NCBI GenBank assembly: GCA_947630715.1
Contig: CANRIP010000006.1
Location: forward strand, 33,694 to 97,693
Length of the DNA: 64,000 nucleotides
Reading direction: 5' to 3'
DNA from: an uncultured Acetatifactor sp.
GTDB lineage: Bacteria; Bacillota; Clostridia; Lachnospirales; Lachnospiraceae
A program made the translations under genes and the position numbers. This document shows positions 23,459 through 64,000 of this stretch, piece by piece; position 1 is the first letter of the stretch, and each line of letters opens with the position of its first letter. Below the pieces are notes generated by a model. That model worked only from the letters and a program-made list of their open reading frames with translations. It searched no databases and was not told where the DNA came from.

Positions 23459-24700
23459 GTGGAGGTTGATGATATGCTAAGTCAATTTACTGTTAAAAAC
23501 TACAAAAGTATCCGTGATGAGATTACATTTGACATGCAGGCAGCAGCTATTTCGGAGCATAACGATAAAATTATTCAAGATGGGAATGGGGAATTGTTTC
23601 TGCCCGTAGCGGTTATCTATGGGCCGAACGGTGGCGGAAAGTCTAATGTACTGGAAGCAATTTATACATTGGCATCTAAAATTTTGCGTCCTCTTTGCGC
23701 AACCTGCGATAAAAGCGACTGCGCATACAAGGCCAGAAAAATTCCTGTGGAACCATTTGCTTTTACGGAAGAAAATAGAAACATGCCTACAAAGTTTGAA
23801 ATTTTCTTTCGGACGCAAGTAGCAGAGTATCGTTATATTCTTCATATTCAGAGAGAAACCGTGATTTATGAAAGCCTTGATAGAGTGAAAATGGAAACGG
23901 GAAGGCGCTCTGCATTGTTTGTCCGTGAAAAAGACAAAATAGATTTGAAAGGCACATTTGTCAAATTTAAGATTAGTGAAGACTTGTCGGAAACTTTGCC
24001 CTTATTGTCATATCTTGGGATTACTTATAAAAAGAACGAAATAGTGAATGACGTGCTGAGTTGGTTTGAAGAATCCATAGACTTTTTAAATTATGGAAAT
24101 CCTTATCAGGAAATGAAAACAGCAATAGCAAAATCTGATAAAATCAAAGAATTAGTGTTGAAAATGATCCGGGAAATGGACTTGGATATTGAAGATTTTC
24201 GTGTGGAAGAAAAGGACGAGGATACGGTAGAGGTGTATACAAAACATATTGTGAATGGAGAGAGTACAGAACTTACGTTATCCGAGGAGTCCAGCGGAAC
24301 AAAAAAGCTATTTGGACTTTTGCCGTATATTGTGCATAGCCTGATCTGCGGAACGACGTTGGTCATTGACGAACTGGACGCAAAAATTCATCCCTTATTA
24401 TTGAAACACATGATTGAACTGTATACGGACATGAATGTAAATAAGGCAAAGGGGCAGTTGATTTTTACCTCCCATGATTTATCAACCATGAACAATGAGG
24501 TTTATCGAAGGGACGAAATTTGGTTTGTGGCAAAGGGAAGGGATCAAAACACCAAGTTATATTCATTGGTAGAGTTTAAGGATGACAATGGTGTGTCAGT
24601 CCGCAAGGATGCAAAATATGATAAACAGTATCTTGAGGGGAAATATGGCGCGGATCCGTATCTGCAAAGGATTATAGATTGGGGGACAGTCAATGCCTAA
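23459..24700 (+). CDS. AAA family ATPase (AbiLi-like partner of RloB)
   Basis: MLSQFTVKNYKSIRDEITFDMQA; Walker A YGPNGGGKSNVLEA; LVIDELDAKIHPLLLKHMIELY; AT-richer than neighbours. Confidence 0.88.
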   Translation: MEVDDMLSQFTVKNYKSIRDEITFDMQAAAISEHNDKIIQDGNGELFLPVAVIYGPNGGGKSNVLEAIYTLASKILRPLCATCDKSDCAYKARKIPVEPFAFTEENRNMPTKFEIFFRTQVAEYRYILHIQRETVIYESLDRVKMETGRRSALFVREKDKIDLKGTFVKFKISEDLSETLPLLSYLGITYKKNEIVNDVLSWFEESIDFLNYGNPYQEMKTAIAKSDKIKELVLKMIREMDLDIEDFRVEEKDEDTVEVYTKHIVNGESTELTLSEESSGTKKLFGLLPYIVHSLICGTTLVIDELDAKIHPLLLKHMIELYTDMNVNKAKGQLIFTSHDLSTMNNEVYRRDEIWFVAKGRDQNTKLYSLVEFKDDNGVSVRKDAKYDKQYLEGKYGADPYLQRIIDWGTVNA

Positions 24701-25409
24701 AAAAGCCGGTATGGAAAAGTGGAAGAAAGAGCGTCGGAAACACTATTTGGAACTCAAAGAATATCGCTACTACATCTTTTGTGAGGGGGAGCAAACAGAG
24801 CCGCAGTATTTTGCAGGATTTAAACGGCTGATTGAGGACAACCCTATCTACAAAGATATGGTATTGATTGAGATTGAGCCTTGTGCAGCAGAAACCATGC
24901 GCGTCATAGGAATGGCGGAAAGATATGTCAAAGAGAATAACATACAAAAGGGTCAAATCTGGTGTGTGTATGATAAGGACAGTTTTCCGGCAGAGCATTT
25001 CAATGGTGTTGTGGAACGAGCGGACTTGTTAAATCAGGATAACTCAGAATTACAATATCATGCAGCGTGGAGTAATGAGTGCATTGAGTTCTGGTTTATA
25101 CTGCATTTTGCTTATTATACCGCTAACAACCACCGGACAGCGTACATAAATTTTTTAAACCATAAGTTTCAGGAACTGGGATTAGGGAAGTATCAGAAGA
25201 ATATGCCGAATCTTTTTGAAATATTAATGGAAAAAGGTAATCCAAAGCTGGCAATACGATACGCCAAGCGGGCTATCAAAGATGGACGAGGTAAAACGCC
25301 AACGGAAATTGCGCCGGGGACAAAGGTGTATGAGCTGGTGGAGGAACTGGCGAAGTATTTGCCGGAAGAAATAAGAAACTGTTTTTGCCAGGAACGTGCG
25401 CAATTTTGA
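24693..25409 (+). CDS. RloB-like protein (AbiLii-like)
   Basis: YYIFCEGEQTEPQYFAGF, WCVYDKDSFP, SNECIEFWFILHF; 8-bp overlap with upstream AAA ATPase. Confidence 0.88.
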   Translation: MPKKAGMEKWKKERRKHYLELKEYRYYIFCEGEQTEPQYFAGFKRLIEDNPIYKDMVLIEIEPCAAETMRVIGMAERYVKENNIQKGQIWCVYDKDSFPAEHFNGVVERADLLNQDNSELQYHAAWSNECIEFWFILHFAYYTANNHRTAYINFLNHKFQELGLGKYQKNMPNLFEILMEKGNPKLAIRYAKRAIKDGRGKTPTEIAPGTKVYELVEELAKYLPEEIRNCFCQERAQF

Positions 25410-29589: not shown

Positions 29590-29646
29590 AAGCATTGACA
29601 CTTGTCCGGCAGAATGTTATGATGCAGTTATTAAAACGATAAGGGA

Positions 29647-29815
29647 GATAGAGGTTGCGTTTTTCAGGAGTACTCCTTTTGATGCGGCAGGCGCAGAGGA
29701 AAAGGGAGAAAAGGGAAGGACGCCGAAAGAAGGGATCATCTGCGGATTTCTTCTTGGGCATGCAGTGAAAAACTGCATGACTGTCATCCGGCTGTCTGCC
29801 GGATGGGGCGCTATC
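29647..29815 (+). promoter_or_regulatory. Lysine riboswitch (L-box) aptamer upstream of dapA
   Basis: GATAGAGGTTGCG...AGTACTCC...AAGGACGCCGAAAGAAGG...TGCAGTGAAAAACTGCATGACTGTCATCCGGCTGTCTGCCGGATGGGGCGCTATC; first and last segments pair as P1. Confidence 0.92.
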
Positions 29816-29840
29816 AAGGGAAATCCTCTTTGGGAATTTT

Positions 29841-57063: not shown

Positions 57064-58524
57064 ATGAAAAAAGGTCAGGTATTTGAAACAAAGGTCACCA
57101 GGGTGGACTTCCCCAACAAGGGGATCGCCTTGACGGAAGAAGGCCCCGTGACCGTAAAAAACAGCCTGCCCGGACAGTTCATAAAGCTTAGTGTCAATAA
57201 GGTGAGAAATGGGAAGGCGGAGGGCCGTCTGTTGGAGGTGATGGAACAATCACCTTTGGAAACAGCCAAACCGTGTTCCCACTTTGGTGTGTGCGGAGGC
57301 TGTAATTATTTGTCGCTGCCTTATGAGACGCAGTTGCAAATCAAGGAGGAACAGGTGAAAAGGCTCCTGGAGGATGCGCTGAAAAACCAGGCGGTTCCTT
57401 TTCGCTGGGAGGGGATCAAGGGCAGCCCCATATCCTGCGGATACCGCAACAAAATGGAATTCACCTTTGGCGACGAAAGGAAGGATGGGCCGCTTGCTCT
57501 GGGTATGCACAAAAGAGACAGTTTTTACGATGTGGTAACTGTTTGCGACTGCCGGATCGTGGATGAGGATTACAGGCAAATCCTTGAGGCGGTCCGGTCT
57601 TATTTTGCGGAAAAAAAGGTAAGCTTTTTTCACAGGACATCACACCTTGGTTATCTGCGACATCTTCTGGTCAGAAAGGCGTACCGCACGGGAGAGATTC
57701 TGGCTGCGCTGGTCACTACGTCCCAGCCCATGGCAGGGGAAGGCCAGGGGGAGGGAGAGCAGGGCCGTGAAGGGGAGGAAACGATTCTGCGGGGATTTCT
57801 GGACCGGCTTCTTTCTCTGGAGAAAGAGGGGAAACTCTCCGGCCGTTTTGCGGGTATTTTGCACATTGTGAATGATTCCCCGGCGGATACCATAAAAAGC
57901 GACCGCACGGAGGTACTGTACGGACAGGATTATTTTTATGAGGAAATTCTGGGGCTGAGATTCCGGATTTCCACCTTTTCCTTTTTCCAGACCAATTCCT
58001 CCGGAGCGGAGACGCTGTATCAAACGGCCAGGGAATATGTGGGGGATTTAAGGGACGCATCGGGCAAGCGGGATAAGGTGGTGTACGATCTGTACAGCGG
58101 GACGGGGACGATTGCGCAGCTTTTGTCCCCCGTGGCTCAAAAGGTGATCGGCGTGGAGATTGTGGAGGAGGCTGTGGAGGCTGCCCGCAGGAACGCGGCG
58201 GAAAACGGGATCGAAAACTGCGAATTCTTGGCGGGGGACGTGCTGAAAATCTTGGATGAAATTCCGGAAAAGCCGGATCTGATCGTGCTGGATCCGCCGC
58301 GGGACGGCATCCATCCCAAGGCCCTGCCGAAAATAGCCGCCCACGCCGGCGCGGAGAAGATTTTGTACATATCCTGTAAGCCCACCAGCCTGGCCCGGGA
58401 TCTCAAGCTGTTGCAGGAGTACGGCTATTGCGCGGTGAGAGGCTGCTGCGTCGATATGTTTCCCAACACGGGGAATGTGGAGACGGTGTGTTTGCTGGCC
58501 AAAACGGATGTCGGACAAGCATGA
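57064..58524 (+). CDS. rlmD: 23S rRNA (uracil-5-)-methyltransferase, RumA/RlmD family
   Basis: TRAM-like N-terminus, CSHFGVCGGCNYLSLPYE, VVYDLYSGTGTIAQLL, LDPPRDGIHPKAL, YISCKPTSLARDL. Confidence 0.95.
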   Translation: MKKGQVFETKVTRVDFPNKGIALTEEGPVTVKNSLPGQFIKLSVNKVRNGKAEGRLLEVMEQSPLETAKPCSHFGVCGGCNYLSLPYETQLQIKEEQVKRLLEDALKNQAVPFRWEGIKGSPISCGYRNKMEFTFGDERKDGPLALGMHKRDSFYDVVTVCDCRIVDEDYRQILEAVRSYFAEKKVSFFHRTSHLGYLRHLLVRKAYRTGEILAALVTTSQPMAGEGQGEGEQGREGEETILRGFLDRLLSLEKEGKLSGRFAGILHIVNDSPADTIKSDRTEVLYGQDYFYEEILGLRFRISTFSFFQTNSSGAETLYQTAREYVGDLRDASGKRDKVVYDLYSGTGTIAQLLSPVAQKVIGVEIVEEAVEAARRNAAENGIENCEFLAGDVLKILDEIPEKPDLIVLDPPRDGIHPKALPKIAAHAGAEKILYISCKPTSLARDLKLLQEYGYCAVRGCCVDMFPNTGNVETVCLLAKTDVGQA

Positions 58525-58783
58525 GGTGGAAATGAAACTGGATGAGATGGATTTGACCGCTGCCGAGAAGAAAGCCAGCTATGAGGAGATTAAGGCGTAT
58601 GTGCTGGAGCATAGCGGACTAAAGGTAAGTAATCTTTATATTGCGCAGGTTAAAAGGAAATGTGGGATCATTGAGAGGGAGAATTATAATAAGCCGAAGT
58701 CTGAGGATGCAAGGCAGCCTAAATGCCCGGAAGATAAAGAGAGGGCGATTCGGGAGGCACTTAAGTATTTTAAGATGATTTAA
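58508..58783 (+). CDS. Out-of-frame rlmD C-terminal-extension-like ORF
   Basis: MSDKHEVEMKLDEMDLTAAEKKASYEEIKAYVLEHSGLKVSNLYIAQVKRKCGIIERENYNKPK; resembles the C-terminal extension found on RlmD homologues. Confidence 0.65.
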   Translation: MSDKHEVEMKLDEMDLTAAEKKASYEEIKAYVLEHSGLKVSNLYIAQVKRKCGIIERENYNKPKSEDARQPKCPEDKERAIREALKYFKMI

Positions 58784-59001
58784 TAAGCTGGGAATAGGTA
58801 AAAGGATTTAACTTAAGATGGTCAGTTGACAAAAAAGCATAGGCAATATATGCAACTCGATTTTCTATACGGTAGAAATAGTCTGACATAACAGTAATTA
58901 ACATTGGTAAATATGAACTGTGGCTATTAAGAAATCAACCTATTAGTTAAAAGAAATACGATATTAAATACAGTTATAATACACGAAATGGGAGATAGAC
59001 G

Positions 59002-61440
59002 ATGGAAGTTAATGAATTTATTAGAATAATAGATGATAAAAAAGTAATAGGATGCGGGAAATACAATGTTGGAAGAGATATACCCTGCGGGGAGTATTAT
59101 TTATGGGGAAGAAATATATGGTATTCTTATAAGAGAAAACGAGAAAGAGAAAGTCATGAATATGTTAGAGAAGCATATGACATCTTTGAGAGTGGTGATA
59201 TACTTACAATTGAAAAAGGTAAAATGACGAGAATAGATAATATAAACTACTCCAAAGAGAACATAGATATTATCATGCCTAATCATATTTATAGAGTTGG
59301 TCTTGAGATTCCAGAGGGTTATTATGTGTATAGGTTTGAAAAGAAATTCTTTAATGATACTATTTCATATTGCCGAAGTGATGATGAATGTGCTTTTGAT
59401 ATGCATAAAAATTATGCAGATTCAAGATATCATAGTGAACATGGTAAGAGTGGTTGTGTAATGTTAGATGTTGTTAATTTTAGGCATGTAAATATTAAAA
59501 ATGGAATAGCTGCTTATGTAGGAGATGAAAAATTTGATGAACAAAAAATTGTAAATGAATGTTCCGTTGAAGAAAATAAATTTTTTAGTAATGGTATTAG
59601 AATATTTAATTGTAAGATTATGGAGATAAGATTATATAAAAAGTATAATAACGGAGGCATGTTTTGCGGAAAAATTCCAGTAGATGTATTAAATTATTAC
59701 ATTTACTCAGTAGAAGACCAGTTAATGTGGAAAGCAGATATCAATCCTTTATCTTTCAAAAGACCAAATAGTATTTCGATATGTTTCTCTGATAGCAGTA
59801 ATAATCAATGTATAGTAGAAATTACAAATTTTTCTTATCATTACGATAGAGAAAAATTAATGAGTTGGTATACTATTTCTACTTTTTTGCCAGATGCTTT
59901 TATAGGATGTGAATTAACTCTTGAACTGTTAGCTTACAATGGAGAGCATGTTTCAGAAAGGTTTGAAGAATGTGTTAGTGTTGGTAAATATAAAGCAGAC
60001 GATACGATATATAAAAGCTATCAAGTATATAGTGACGATTATAAAATGTTACAAAAATTGTTGCAAAATTTTGATGGATTAGATATTCATCAGGAATTAA
60101 CATATTTTGAAAAGGCACCTGATTTATTAAATGAGGTTAATGAGTGTTTAAGACAGATTACCAATAGTAAAATACTTTTTGATCAAGAAAAAGGCGATCC
60201 AAATAAAAAAATTATTTTTAAGATTCCAGCAACATATGATAAGAAATTTTATTGTGCAGCAAAATTAGCCGACGAAGCCTATAAGATTGAAGTAGATGAT
60301 AATGAATTAGCATACTCGGTTATATTCACGGGAGATCAATTGGCACAAATTGAATTGATGAGTTATATGTTTTTCGACATTAATAATAAAGAGGAAGTAC
60401 AAAATAGAGAATATCTAAATAAAAAAAGTTACATATTTTATACTAAAAATACTATCCAGCAAAGGATTAATGCTTTAAATGAGAAATATGGATATTCTTC
60501 TATTGTTACCAATTCTGTATTGGTTCGAATTATCAAAATTATGAACAAAAAGTTACAACAAAGAATTGACAGCGTTTATTCAGAAATAAGTAAAGAAGGC
60601 CGTGTTCAAACAAAATGGGGTAATGAGTATCGCTTATTTTTGTTAGTCAGCAGATATGTAGAAGATGCATGTTATCAATATCATTGTGATTGGCTAGGGA
60701 AGCAAAGTTATGATATTTATTCTGACAAGTACAAGGTGGCAATAGAGTATCAAGGGCAACAACATTATGAGGCAATAGATTTATTTGGCGGTGAAGAAAG
60801 TTTAAAATATAATTTGGAGAGAGATAAGCGTAAGAGAGAATTATCAGTATTACATGGGATTAGACTACTGGAATGGAAATATACGGTACCTGTTGAAGAA
60901 AATAATGTAATAAATTTTTTGATTACTAATGGTATTGAAATTCAATCTCCTAGGTGCGTAGATATAAAATCCAATTATGTGTCCAGTAATATAGAAATGG
61001 CACCTATAAAGGGTATTAAGGGACAAAATAAGTCAACACAGCAGAGGAAAAAAGCGGTTAAACAGATAAACTCGTATGTTGTTCAATATATGTTAAGCGG
61101 AGAATTGAAAAATAAATATACCACAATTGGTGAGGCTGCTAAAGCAGTGGGTATTAGTTCAACTAGTATATCTAAAGTATTAAGAAAAGAACGTAATACA
61201 GCCGGAGGATTCATTTGGGAAAAATATGATGTATCAGAGGATATTCCACAAATTGTTGAAATTGATTTTGATATTAGTTTGATAAATAATGGAATATCCA
61301 AAAAAATTGCTGAAATGGATAGTGATGGAAATATTATTGAAGAATATCCATCTATTTTAGAAGCTTCGAGAAAAACCAACAAAGATGTTGATGCCATACG
61401 GAAATGTCTTAGGGATAAAAAGGGTTGGAGATATTTATAA
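59002..61440 (+). CDS. Predicted multidomain nuclease: N-terminal IPxGEY-type repeats, Vsr-like/PD-(D/E)XK-like core, C-terminal NUMOD1-like motifs
   Basis: VGRDIPCGEYYLWG and YRVGLEIPEGYYVYRF; DIYSDKYKVAIEYQGQQHYEAIDLFGGEESLKYNLERDKRKRELSVLHGIRLLEWKY; TIGEAAKAVGISSTSISKVLRKERNTAGGFIWEKY. Confidence 0.7.
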   Translation: MEVNEFIRIIDDKKVIGCGKYNVGRDIPCGEYYLWGRNIWYSYKRKRERESHEYVREAYDIFESGDILTIEKGKMTRIDNINYSKENIDIIMPNHIYRVGLEIPEGYYVYRFEKKFFNDTISYCRSDDECAFDMHKNYADSRYHSEHGKSGCVMLDVVNFRHVNIKNGIAAYVGDEKFDEQKIVNECSVEENKFFSNGIRIFNCKIMEIRLYKKYNNGGMFCGKIPVDVLNYYIYSVEDQLMWKADINPLSFKRPNSISICFSDSSNNQCIVEITNFSYHYDREKLMSWYTISTFLPDAFIGCELTLELLAYNGEHVSERFEECVSVGKYKADDTIYKSYQVYSDDYKMLQKLLQNFDGLDIHQELTYFEKAPDLLNEVNECLRQITNSKILFDQEKGDPNKKIIFKIPATYDKKFYCAAKLADEAYKIEVDDNELAYSVIFTGDQLAQIELMSYMFFDINNKEEVQNREYLNKKSYIFYTKNTIQQRINALNEKYGYSSIVTNSVLVRIIKIMNKKLQQRIDSVYSEISKEGRVQTKWGNEYRLFLLVSRYVEDACYQYHCDWLGKQSYDIYSDKYKVAIEYQGQQHYEAIDLFGGEESLKYNLERDKRKRELSVLHGIRLLEWKYTVPVEENNVINFLITNGIEIQSPRCVDIKSNYVSSNIEMAPIKGIKGQNKSTQQRKKAVKQINSYVVQYMLSGELKNKYTTIGEAAKAVGISSTSISKVLRKERNTAGGFIWEKYDVSEDIPQIVEIDFDISLINNGISKKIAEMDSDGNIIEEYPSILEASRKTNKDVDAIRKCLRDKKGWRYL

Positions 61441-61510
61441 TTATTAATTTGCTGAGAATCTCAAAATGCAACAAGAGTATTCGGCAAAGTAATATAGAAA
61501 GAGAGTAGAA

Positions 61511-62308
61511 ATGTTAATTGATGCTTCAGATGCAAATACCATTCCGGTTGATATAGAAAATAAAATAATAAGATATTTTTCTTTAATGCCTGAAAACGTA
61601 ATTGCTAATATAAAAAATCAGAAACTTGAATACGACCATGATGTGTTATGTGCAATTGAAGAATATGTAGCTCCAAACACTGCATATGATTTTTATCAGG
61701 AGCTTATTGCATTATTTGAACAGCATGAAATGGTTTGCTACCATTCTACAAAAATACTTGATAAAGGCATAATTTTTGAGAATGGACTTAAAACAAATGA
61801 TTGGGATACCTATAGCCGAAATATTATTAGTATTTTCAAAAAACTGAATGTGAAAGCAATCGATATAGCCGAATCTATGAAAGTTATAAAAAAACAATAT
61901 GATTGGAAATACCCTATCGTTGATAGAGAACCACAACTGTGTTTTTATTCAGATATAGGACTGTTAAGAAATGATATGTATGCAGGTTATGAGCAATTTT
62001 GTGAGAATATAGGCGGAGAATTGGCGAAAGATGCATTAAAGAAAGATTTTCCACGAATATATGGATATTTGAGAGAAAATGGTGAGGCAATTTTAGTTAA
62101 GTTTAAAATTCCATTTATCGATATAGAAAATTACGACAAGGATTCTATTGTATATCATTTTGTTGCTTACTTTGCAGGGAAGTATTTTTGGAATTATAAT
62201 TATGAAGTTCATTTTGACGGAAATACCAATAAAGATATTGAACCAAATAATATTTTAGAAATTATTCCCTATTTGATAGATAGGTATTATTTTCATAGTG
62301 GGGATTAA
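61511..62308 (+). CDS. Hypothetical protein, 265 aa
   Basis: Intact ORF in AT-rich island; MVCYHSTKILDKGIIFENGLK and GEAILVKFKIPF stretches; family not recognised. Confidence 0.6.
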   Translation: MLIDASDANTIPVDIENKIIRYFSLMPENVIANIKNQKLEYDHDVLCAIEEYVAPNTAYDFYQELIALFEQHEMVCYHSTKILDKGIIFENGLKTNDWDTYSRNIISIFKKLNVKAIDIAESMKVIKKQYDWKYPIVDREPQLCFYSDIGLLRNDMYAGYEQFCENIGGELAKDALKKDFPRIYGYLRENGEAILVKFKIPFIDIENYDKDSIVYHFVAYFAGKYFWNYNYEVHFDGNTNKDIEPNNILEIIPYLIDRYYFHSGD

Positions 62309-62356
62309 ATATAAAAAGGGTGTGAACTTATCCGAGTAAAAAAGGAGTAATCATAA

Positions 62357-63412
62357 ATGGGAAATAGAAAAGGACCAAAAACCTATAATCATTATGTTCC
62401 ACAGTTTTATTTAAAAAACTTTTCGGGTAATAATAGCATTGGTGTTTATAATTTTGAGAGAAAAAAATTTGTTGATGAAGCTGCCATTCGTACACAAGGA
62501 GGTAGAGATTTTTTATACGGAAAAGATAATAAACTAGAAGACTGGTTCATAAATTTAGAAGGTGAATGGGCTAGGATAATTAATGATATTTTTGTATATG
62601 AAAAAATTCCAAAGGATAGTATAGATTATATTTATTTATTAATGTTTGTATATTTGAGTGATGTGAGGGTAGCTGAAAAAGCGGATGATTTCAAAAGAAA
62701 CAAATTAGAAGAGTCCAAAAGTATAGCCAAGGTACTTGCTGCACAGAATAAAATATCTTTATCAGAAAGCGATATTGAAAGTATGGACATTAGATTTGAC
62801 AGACCTAACCTTTCATATATACAGGGTATGAATAATTTAATCCCCATTATTTCTGAGCTTTGTCCGATGATTATTATAAATGAAAGTAAGCTGGGATTTA
62901 TTACAGCCGATGTTCCTCTTGCAAAATATAACCAATGGTTTATAGAAAGGAATTATAAACATCCATATGGTTTTGGGCATATGGGATTTCAATGTTTTAT
63001 TCCCTTATCTCCTAAGATATGTTTTTGCCTATATGATGATAATGTTTATAAAAATGAGTATAGTAATAAGGGCAGAATTAGAATATATAATGAGTCTGTA
63101 GTAGAACAATTTAACAAACTATTTATCCAAAATTCATATAAGGAAGTTTATTATCGCATAGACACAAGGGCATGGCTTGAGAAAAATATAGGAATAAAAT
63201 CTGAAAATAAATTAGAAGAGTGGATTATGGGGAATCCGCAGCAAGGATATTTGCAAAAAGTATCAAGTCGTAGTGTGTATGACATTATAAAATTGCCTAT
63301 GTTTAAGACGAAACAATTTTATAAAACAGTTCCTTTGCCTTATGATGAAGCCGGACCAATACGCAGGGAAGCATTTGAAAAAATGAGTAAATGGAATAAA
63401 ACACATTTATGA
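62357..63412 (+). CDS. DUF4238 domain-containing protein
   Basis: YNHYVPQFYLKNFSGNNSIGVYNFERKKF...RDFLYGKDNKLEDWFINLEGEWARII. Confidence 0.88.
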   Translation: MGNRKGPKTYNHYVPQFYLKNFSGNNSIGVYNFERKKFVDEAAIRTQGGRDFLYGKDNKLEDWFINLEGEWARIINDIFVYEKIPKDSIDYIYLLMFVYLSDVRVAEKADDFKRNKLEESKSIAKVLAAQNKISLSESDIESMDIRFDRPNLSYIQGMNNLIPIISELCPMIIINESKLGFITADVPLAKYNQWFIERNYKHPYGFGHMGFQCFIPLSPKICFCLYDDNVYKNEYSNKGRIRIYNESVVEQFNKLFIQNSYKEVYYRIDTRAWLEKNIGIKSENKLEEWIMGNPQQGYLQKVSSRSVYDIIKLPMFKTKQFYKTVPLPYDEAGPIRREAFEKMSKWNKTHL

Positions 63413-63442
63413 GGCAACAAAATATTGATGCGTAGTACTATT

Positions 63443-63913
63443 TTATAACGCTTTCTCATTTTTCAAGCACTTTTCCCGTTCCGGATCAGAGTGATTTTTC
63501 TTAAGTAAATTAAGAAAATCAAACAATTCTTTTCTTGTCATATTATCCAATACAAAGAAATCCGCAATTAACTGGTCGATCATCGGCAACTCGGTGTAGT
63601 CAAATTTCTTAATGATCTTTAAGGTGCGGCCGGAGAAGTAAGCCTTCTTTTCCATGTTGATCATCAACCGTTCTTTATCGGAGGGAAGCTTTGGCAGTGT
63701 TTCCATGTCCTCGTAGGGATTGTCCTTGCAGATGGAATTGATAGGAATGTCGAGGATATTGGAAATACGTAGCGCTGTGTCAAAGCGGATGGCGGCGTCA
63801 CGCTGGATAATAGAGTAAAGCGTGGTCGGTGCAATTCCAGTCTTTCTTGCCAATTCTTTTACGGTCATGCCCTTCTCGTCCAACAGATTTTTCAGATTTT
63901 TTCCATATCCCAT
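63443..63913 (-). CDS. XRE-family HTH transcriptional regulator
   Basis: MGYGKNLKNLLDEKGMTVKELARKTGIAPTTLYSIIQRDAAIRFDTALRISNILDIPINSI; start taken at Met 63913. Confidence 0.88.
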   Translation of the reverse strand: MGYGKNLKNLLDEKGMTVKELARKTGIAPTTLYSIIQRDAAIRFDTALRISNILDIPINSICKDNPYEDMETLPKLPSDKERLMINMEKKAYFSGRTLKIIKKFDYTELPMIDQLIADFFVLDNMTRKELFDFLNLLKKNHSDPEREKCLKNEKAL

Positions 63914-64000
63914 TTCAATACCGTCCTTTCTAATTTTGTTCAGTATAACACAGTCACCCAAAATACGCAAGGCGTAAAATTTGCATAAAAACGATAAAAA

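Follow-up and report, generated by a model that had tools for sequence, protein, structure and literature searches.

A probable mobilisable-type island with candidate anti-phage cargo at the 3′ end of rlmD

The 3′ end of the rlmD gene analysed here very likely holds the left end of a mobilisable-type island, put there by a large serine recombinase and carrying exchangeable cargo, most likely with at least one anti-phage gene. The window, i.e. the whole stretch of 64,000 nucleotides that was analysed (G000:C6:33694-97693), stops at its final base with the end of contig C6, in an assembly of 71 contigs that is 87% complete. Exchange of 3′ ends between rumA/rlmD and an integrase gene has already been published for streptococcal ICEs, so the window's element is a further rlmD-targeting one of a known kind, ordinary by its mechanism and of use for its content, namely candidate defence genes and a conserved exchanged domain.

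Base composition and gene order

The GC content per kb is 0.53-0.56 directly upstream of rlmD and 0.51 and 0.49 across the gene, followed by 0.289, 0.291, 0.304, 0.294 and 0.358 from 59 to 64 kb, and the step falls exactly 3′ of a short ORF designated ext. The AT-rich shift reported by a first-pass annotation of the same DNA is thus borne out (GC from about 0.53 to 0.29), as is its order of genes: an 812-aa nuclease-like protein, a 265-aa protein, a DUF4238 protein and a convergent XRE regulator (Table 1). The 91-aa ext ORF, which it had overlooked, forms the left end of the element. Its remark that no integrase lies within the window is correct, and this absence carries no meaning, since the window ends where the contig ends.

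Table 1. Features of the rlmD locus (positions in the window)
Feature	Position	Strand	Remarks
rlmD, 23S rRNA uracil-C5-methyltransferase, target gene	57064..58524	+	TIGR00479, 285 bits vs. cut-off of 183.55
attL core GTGGAGACGGT within the VETV codons of rlmD	58477..58487	+	core common to relatives
ext, 91-aa element-borne tail	58508..58783	+	own ORF, overlaps the rlmD stop, +1 frame
Nuclease-like cargo protein, 812 aa	59002..61440	+	Pfam NUMOD1 and I-HmuI NUMOD-like
Cassette comprising the 265-aa gene, the DUF4238 gene and a portion of XRE	61491..63683	+	DNA match in another genus
Orphan protein, 265 aa	61511..62308	+	no Pfam family at 0.001, no PDB match
DUF4238 protein, 351 aa	62357..63412	+	PF14022, 128 bits (cut-off 27), E 4.7e-37
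XRE-type regulator, oriented towards the cargo; the element backbone starts here	63443..63913	-	HTH_26/HTH_3

The rlmD 3′ end as insertion site

RlmD relatives were found across the whole genus at the 70-77% protein level. In a comparison covering the genus and the order, the protein is conserved through its VETV motif and the tails beyond this motif vary between species, some being short and native, others carrying an extension of ~90 aa homologous to the 91-aa ORF. In two relatives (G032 and G011), rlmD has its native end and other genes follow within ~55 nt, the site looking uninterrupted; in G032, these genes correspond to a pyrH/frr-type operon, as read from translations. The empty-site comparison proposed in the first-pass annotation yielded two apparently uninterrupted sites, and the same gene set does not follow rlmD everywhere: the window's three cargo genes occur in none of the 20 same-genus rlmD-downstream regions. 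Together, the variable 3′ ends, the two uninterrupted relatives and the recombinases located downstream support the insertion at rlmD that had been suggested. At the level of the bacterial family, rlmD appears to be a frequent landing site, ext being present in 135 of the 299 genomes sampled.

A DNA core, GTNGARACNGT, is common to the native rlmD ends, the left ends of elements and the recombinase-ext junctions of relatives, with the recombinase end of G006 deviating from it. The window combines this att core with an element-type ext tail at the end of rlmD, as for an insertion in the 3′ part of the gene.

Exchange of 3′ ends between rlmD and recombinase genes

Among the fetched loci, 47 non-redundant ORFs join ext to RlmD, and at least five have it as the C-terminal end of a large serine recombinase; fusions of the latter kind were also seen by inspection in L163 and in the fecal scaffold L215. 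The recombinase of the G015 element (L048) ends in ...STVETVALLAKEGPA, with a VETV frame identical to that of rlmD. G353, G107 and G052 each have an rlmD-ext gene with a recombinase-ext gene behind it, an arrangement that we read as tandem insertions. Locus L116 (G052:C2) presents an rlmD-ext gene, a recombinase-ext gene and an additional ext ORF in succession, and apparently represents a series of tandem elements, in which SIR2-HerA and type I RM-like genes form the cargo.

The common core and the two types of fusion fit a recombination within both genes, by which the 3′ ends are swapped; the left half of this exchange is visible in the window and both halves are visible in relatives. A serine integrase with attR inside its gene is seen in G015, which shares the window's backbone, while the window's contig stops at 64,000. 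The proposed crossover point is GTNGARACNGT, located where rlmD and the recombinase gene each encode VETV; RlmD would gain the ext tail of the element and the recombinase the native RlmD tail. Once the element is excised as a circle, ext is expected on the recombinase. Exchangeable cargo would be accommodated in the slot that separates ext from the XRE-led backbone.

For streptococcal ICEs, the reciprocal exchange of 3′ ends between rumA and the integrase gene alters the reading frame (Ambroset et al. 2016, PMC4701971). The streptococcal ICEs and dICEs in rumA resemble the present element by their target gene and, judging from its relatives, probably also by their single serine integrase, the exchange of 3′ ends and the location of att within both target and integrase genes. 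Unlike them, the element described here belongs to another bacterial family, and the exchange usually preserves the frame and involves a conserved domain; moreover, its visible part is devoid of conjugation genes, with a MobC-like gene in the backbone of a relative, and its cargo consists of candidate defence genes.

As for ext itself, codon comparison gave a dN/dS of 0.08-0.12, indicating purifying selection, and AlphaFold run without alignment returned a weak all-helical model (pLDDT 52). Streptococcal records contain ext as well: in YS162 it is joined to a rum-type protein, whereas in phi-SgaBSJ27_rum it stands alone. A tentative idea, less probable than not, is that ext acts as a partner-switching control domain, which would favour one direction of recombination on the circle and, after integration, be parked in frame on RlmD, the recombinase then bearing the short RlmD tail. 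If so, the attachment site would be the directionality switch of the element, from this family to the streptococci. The conservation of ext also opens to testing a proposal made for streptococcal ICEs, namely that swapping the C-terminus alters the behaviour of the integrase.

In the window, unlike in most relatives, rlmD and ext are read in different frames (58490-58524); stops are found at the same rlmD-ext junction in G017 and G027. This frame break could reflect a coupling of overlapping genes, decay, a natural indel, or a sequencing or assembly error.

Element backbone and right end

From the XRE gene onward, the element has a backbone in common with relatives. Window positions 63510-64000, i.e. 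the XRE gene and its upstream DNA, share 91% DNA identity with L048 (G015), and positions 63491-64000 share 88% with L190 (G072:C28, another genus); L048 and L190 are themselves 89% identical over 1.2 kb, a match running past the point where the window ends. The cargo between ext and this backbone differs, with DISARM in G015, other genes in G072:C28, and the 812-aa, 265-aa and DUF4238 genes in the window. In G015, G006 and G052, a serine recombinase of one family is located 13-15 kb 3′ of rlmD. The G015 element, with its DISARM system, ends with such a serine recombinase; since its backbone goes on with a MobC-like gene (read from the translation), KilA-N and serine recombinase genes, the missing right part of the window's element probably spans a few kb. 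The recombinase of the window's element would be located past the contig end, and the element may still be mobile. When the G015 backbone DNA was searched in the window's own genome, it matched the contig end alone, the right end, recombinase and attR being absent from the assembly. Concerning conjugation genes, none was found in the visible 5 kb of the element, and the G015 backbone carries the MobC-like gene only.

Elsewhere in the assembly (L004, G000:C1:112-1857), another RlmD-type paralog bears an ext tail fused to it, and its contig ends 111 bp past the stop; a second element at this place may explain both assembly breaks.

It is conceivable, if rather doubtful, that the element entered rlmD and later lost its recombinase, leaving an immobile island whose cargo was shuffled by ordinary recombination. 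The out-of-frame ext would suit such a decay, as would two relatives of the cargo described below: the cassette in G072:C12 is broken by stops and has a truncated recombinase and a transposase-like gene as neighbours, and G089 has fragments 3′ of its 265-aa gene. However, in the window the three cargo genes and the XRE gene are intact and under purifying selection, and the start of the backbone is intact as far as the contig end.

Cargo genes

The 812-aa protein comprises an N-terminal region, a nuclease core and C-terminal NUMOD1 repeats. By our assignment, which relies on the pattern D..IEYQGxQHY..D kept in distant homologs, the core would be PD-(D/E)XK/EDxHD-like. A relative matching both the N-terminal and the nuclease parts is present in G068, and another one, in G333, adjoins integrase-like and relaxase-like genes. 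Our preferred reading is that of a restriction-like defence nuclease. The protein could instead be a selfish free-standing homing endonuclease, which we consider the less probable of the two: NUMOD1, a feature of NUMOD homing endonucleases, and I-HmuI-like domains are present, homing-endonuclease matches were obtained with both PHROG and PADLOC, and the C-terminus is similar to T4 MobB. Against this stand the long additional N-terminal region, the location of the G333 relative on another integrase/relaxase-type element and the setting of the gene, which stands as its own ORF, flanked by ext and the 265-aa gene, with no intron, intein or interrupted host gene at the locus and no Rfam intron in the window. 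I-HmuI and T4 MobB have in common with the 812-aa protein the NUMOD1 DNA-binding repeats at the C-terminus, whereas the latter differs by its catalytic core, its long N-terminal region and its status of free-standing cargo.

The cassette formed by the next two genes and part of the XRE gene is 96.3% identical at the DNA level, over 2194 bp, to G072:C12, and its portion 61491-62408 matches G089:C13 at 95.2% identity; the two loci come from other genera. As the rlmD segments matched within the genus reach only ~70-80% DNA identity, cargo that is 95-96% identical in two other genera makes the locus more than a chance arrangement, and these identities indicate that the cassette moved between genera recently. 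Its left break is identical despite different preceding genes: the nuclease gene in the window, HsdR in G089 and a truncated recombinase in G072. An assembly chimera or contamination is very improbable: the stretch does run to the end of a contig, in an assembly that is 87% complete, but independent genomes have the same rlmD-ext left end and XRE backbone, and 2.2 kb of the cargo are 96% identical in another genus.

The 265-aa gene was found in five of 397 family genomes, where it follows varied partners like an exchangeable add-on, and codon comparison pointed to purifying selection (dN/dS of 0.25-0.35). Besides lacking a Pfam family and a PDB match (Table 1), its product has no match among plasmids or phages, and its AlphaFold model without alignment is unusable (pLDDT 36). 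A function as ADP-ribosyltransferase, considered from a sequence reading of an H78-S-T ... G-L pattern, found no support.

The DUF4238 gene is also under purifying selection (dN/dS of 0.19, codon comparison). DUF4238 occurs in 14 of 250 family genomes, four of which (G000, the window's own genome, G072, G203 and G100) have one within ~4 kb of ext. One DUF4238 protein was shown to confer strong resistance to T7 (Rousset et al. 2022, PMC9122126). That single-gene anti-phage system shares with the window's candidate the Pfam domain and the location in a mobile-element hotspot, and differs in that the present candidate is accompanied by two unrelated genes. The window's DUF4238 protein had no match at E 0.001 in PADLOC-DB 2.0.0, which may hold no DUF4238 model.

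Defence systems at the rlmD slot

Recognised defence systems occur either 3′ of rlmD-ext or at a copy of ext, among them DISARM (G015), an IetS-like gene with a methyltransferase (G035), a type II RM (G072), a type I RM (G089) and SIR2-HerA (G052). In a less selected test, the first three large ORFs 3′ of rlmD-ext were analysed at 20 loci (19 taken by ext rank order plus G203, picked for its DUF4238 gene), with the first three upstream as control. Downstream matches (E<=1e-20) include type I methyltransferases, a type I restriction enzyme and specificity subunits, as well as type IIG, DolB and PDC-M02A. Among the 25 most frequent families listed, the upstream control gave GajB/RTasHel matches only, in five proteins; the GajB matches were rejected as defence genes, being cross-matches as expected of PcrA-type helicases. 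The PADLOC mad2/MTase matches on RlmD were likewise set aside as cross-matches. Several loci at rlmD-ext carry non-defence cargo, e.g. ABC transporters.

When compared to the PADLOC defence models, the window's own cargo genes gave nothing beyond weak homing-endonuclease and HTH matches. That they are anti-phage genes is nevertheless plausible, because the slot holds recognisable systems in many relatives and because of the DUF4238 precedent. Apparently a frequent landing site, often with defence systems, the rlmD slot is worth searching for new anti-phage genes, for which the 812-aa and 265-aa genes provide specific candidates.

Two other observations were made in the window. A second AT-rich patch (23459-25409, GC ~0.40) encodes an ATPase and an RloB-like protein, which match AbiLi (6.5e-83) and AbiLii (1.3e-30) in PADLOC and probably constitute an AbiL pair. 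Finally, a lysine riboswitch is located at 29641-29821 (125 bits).
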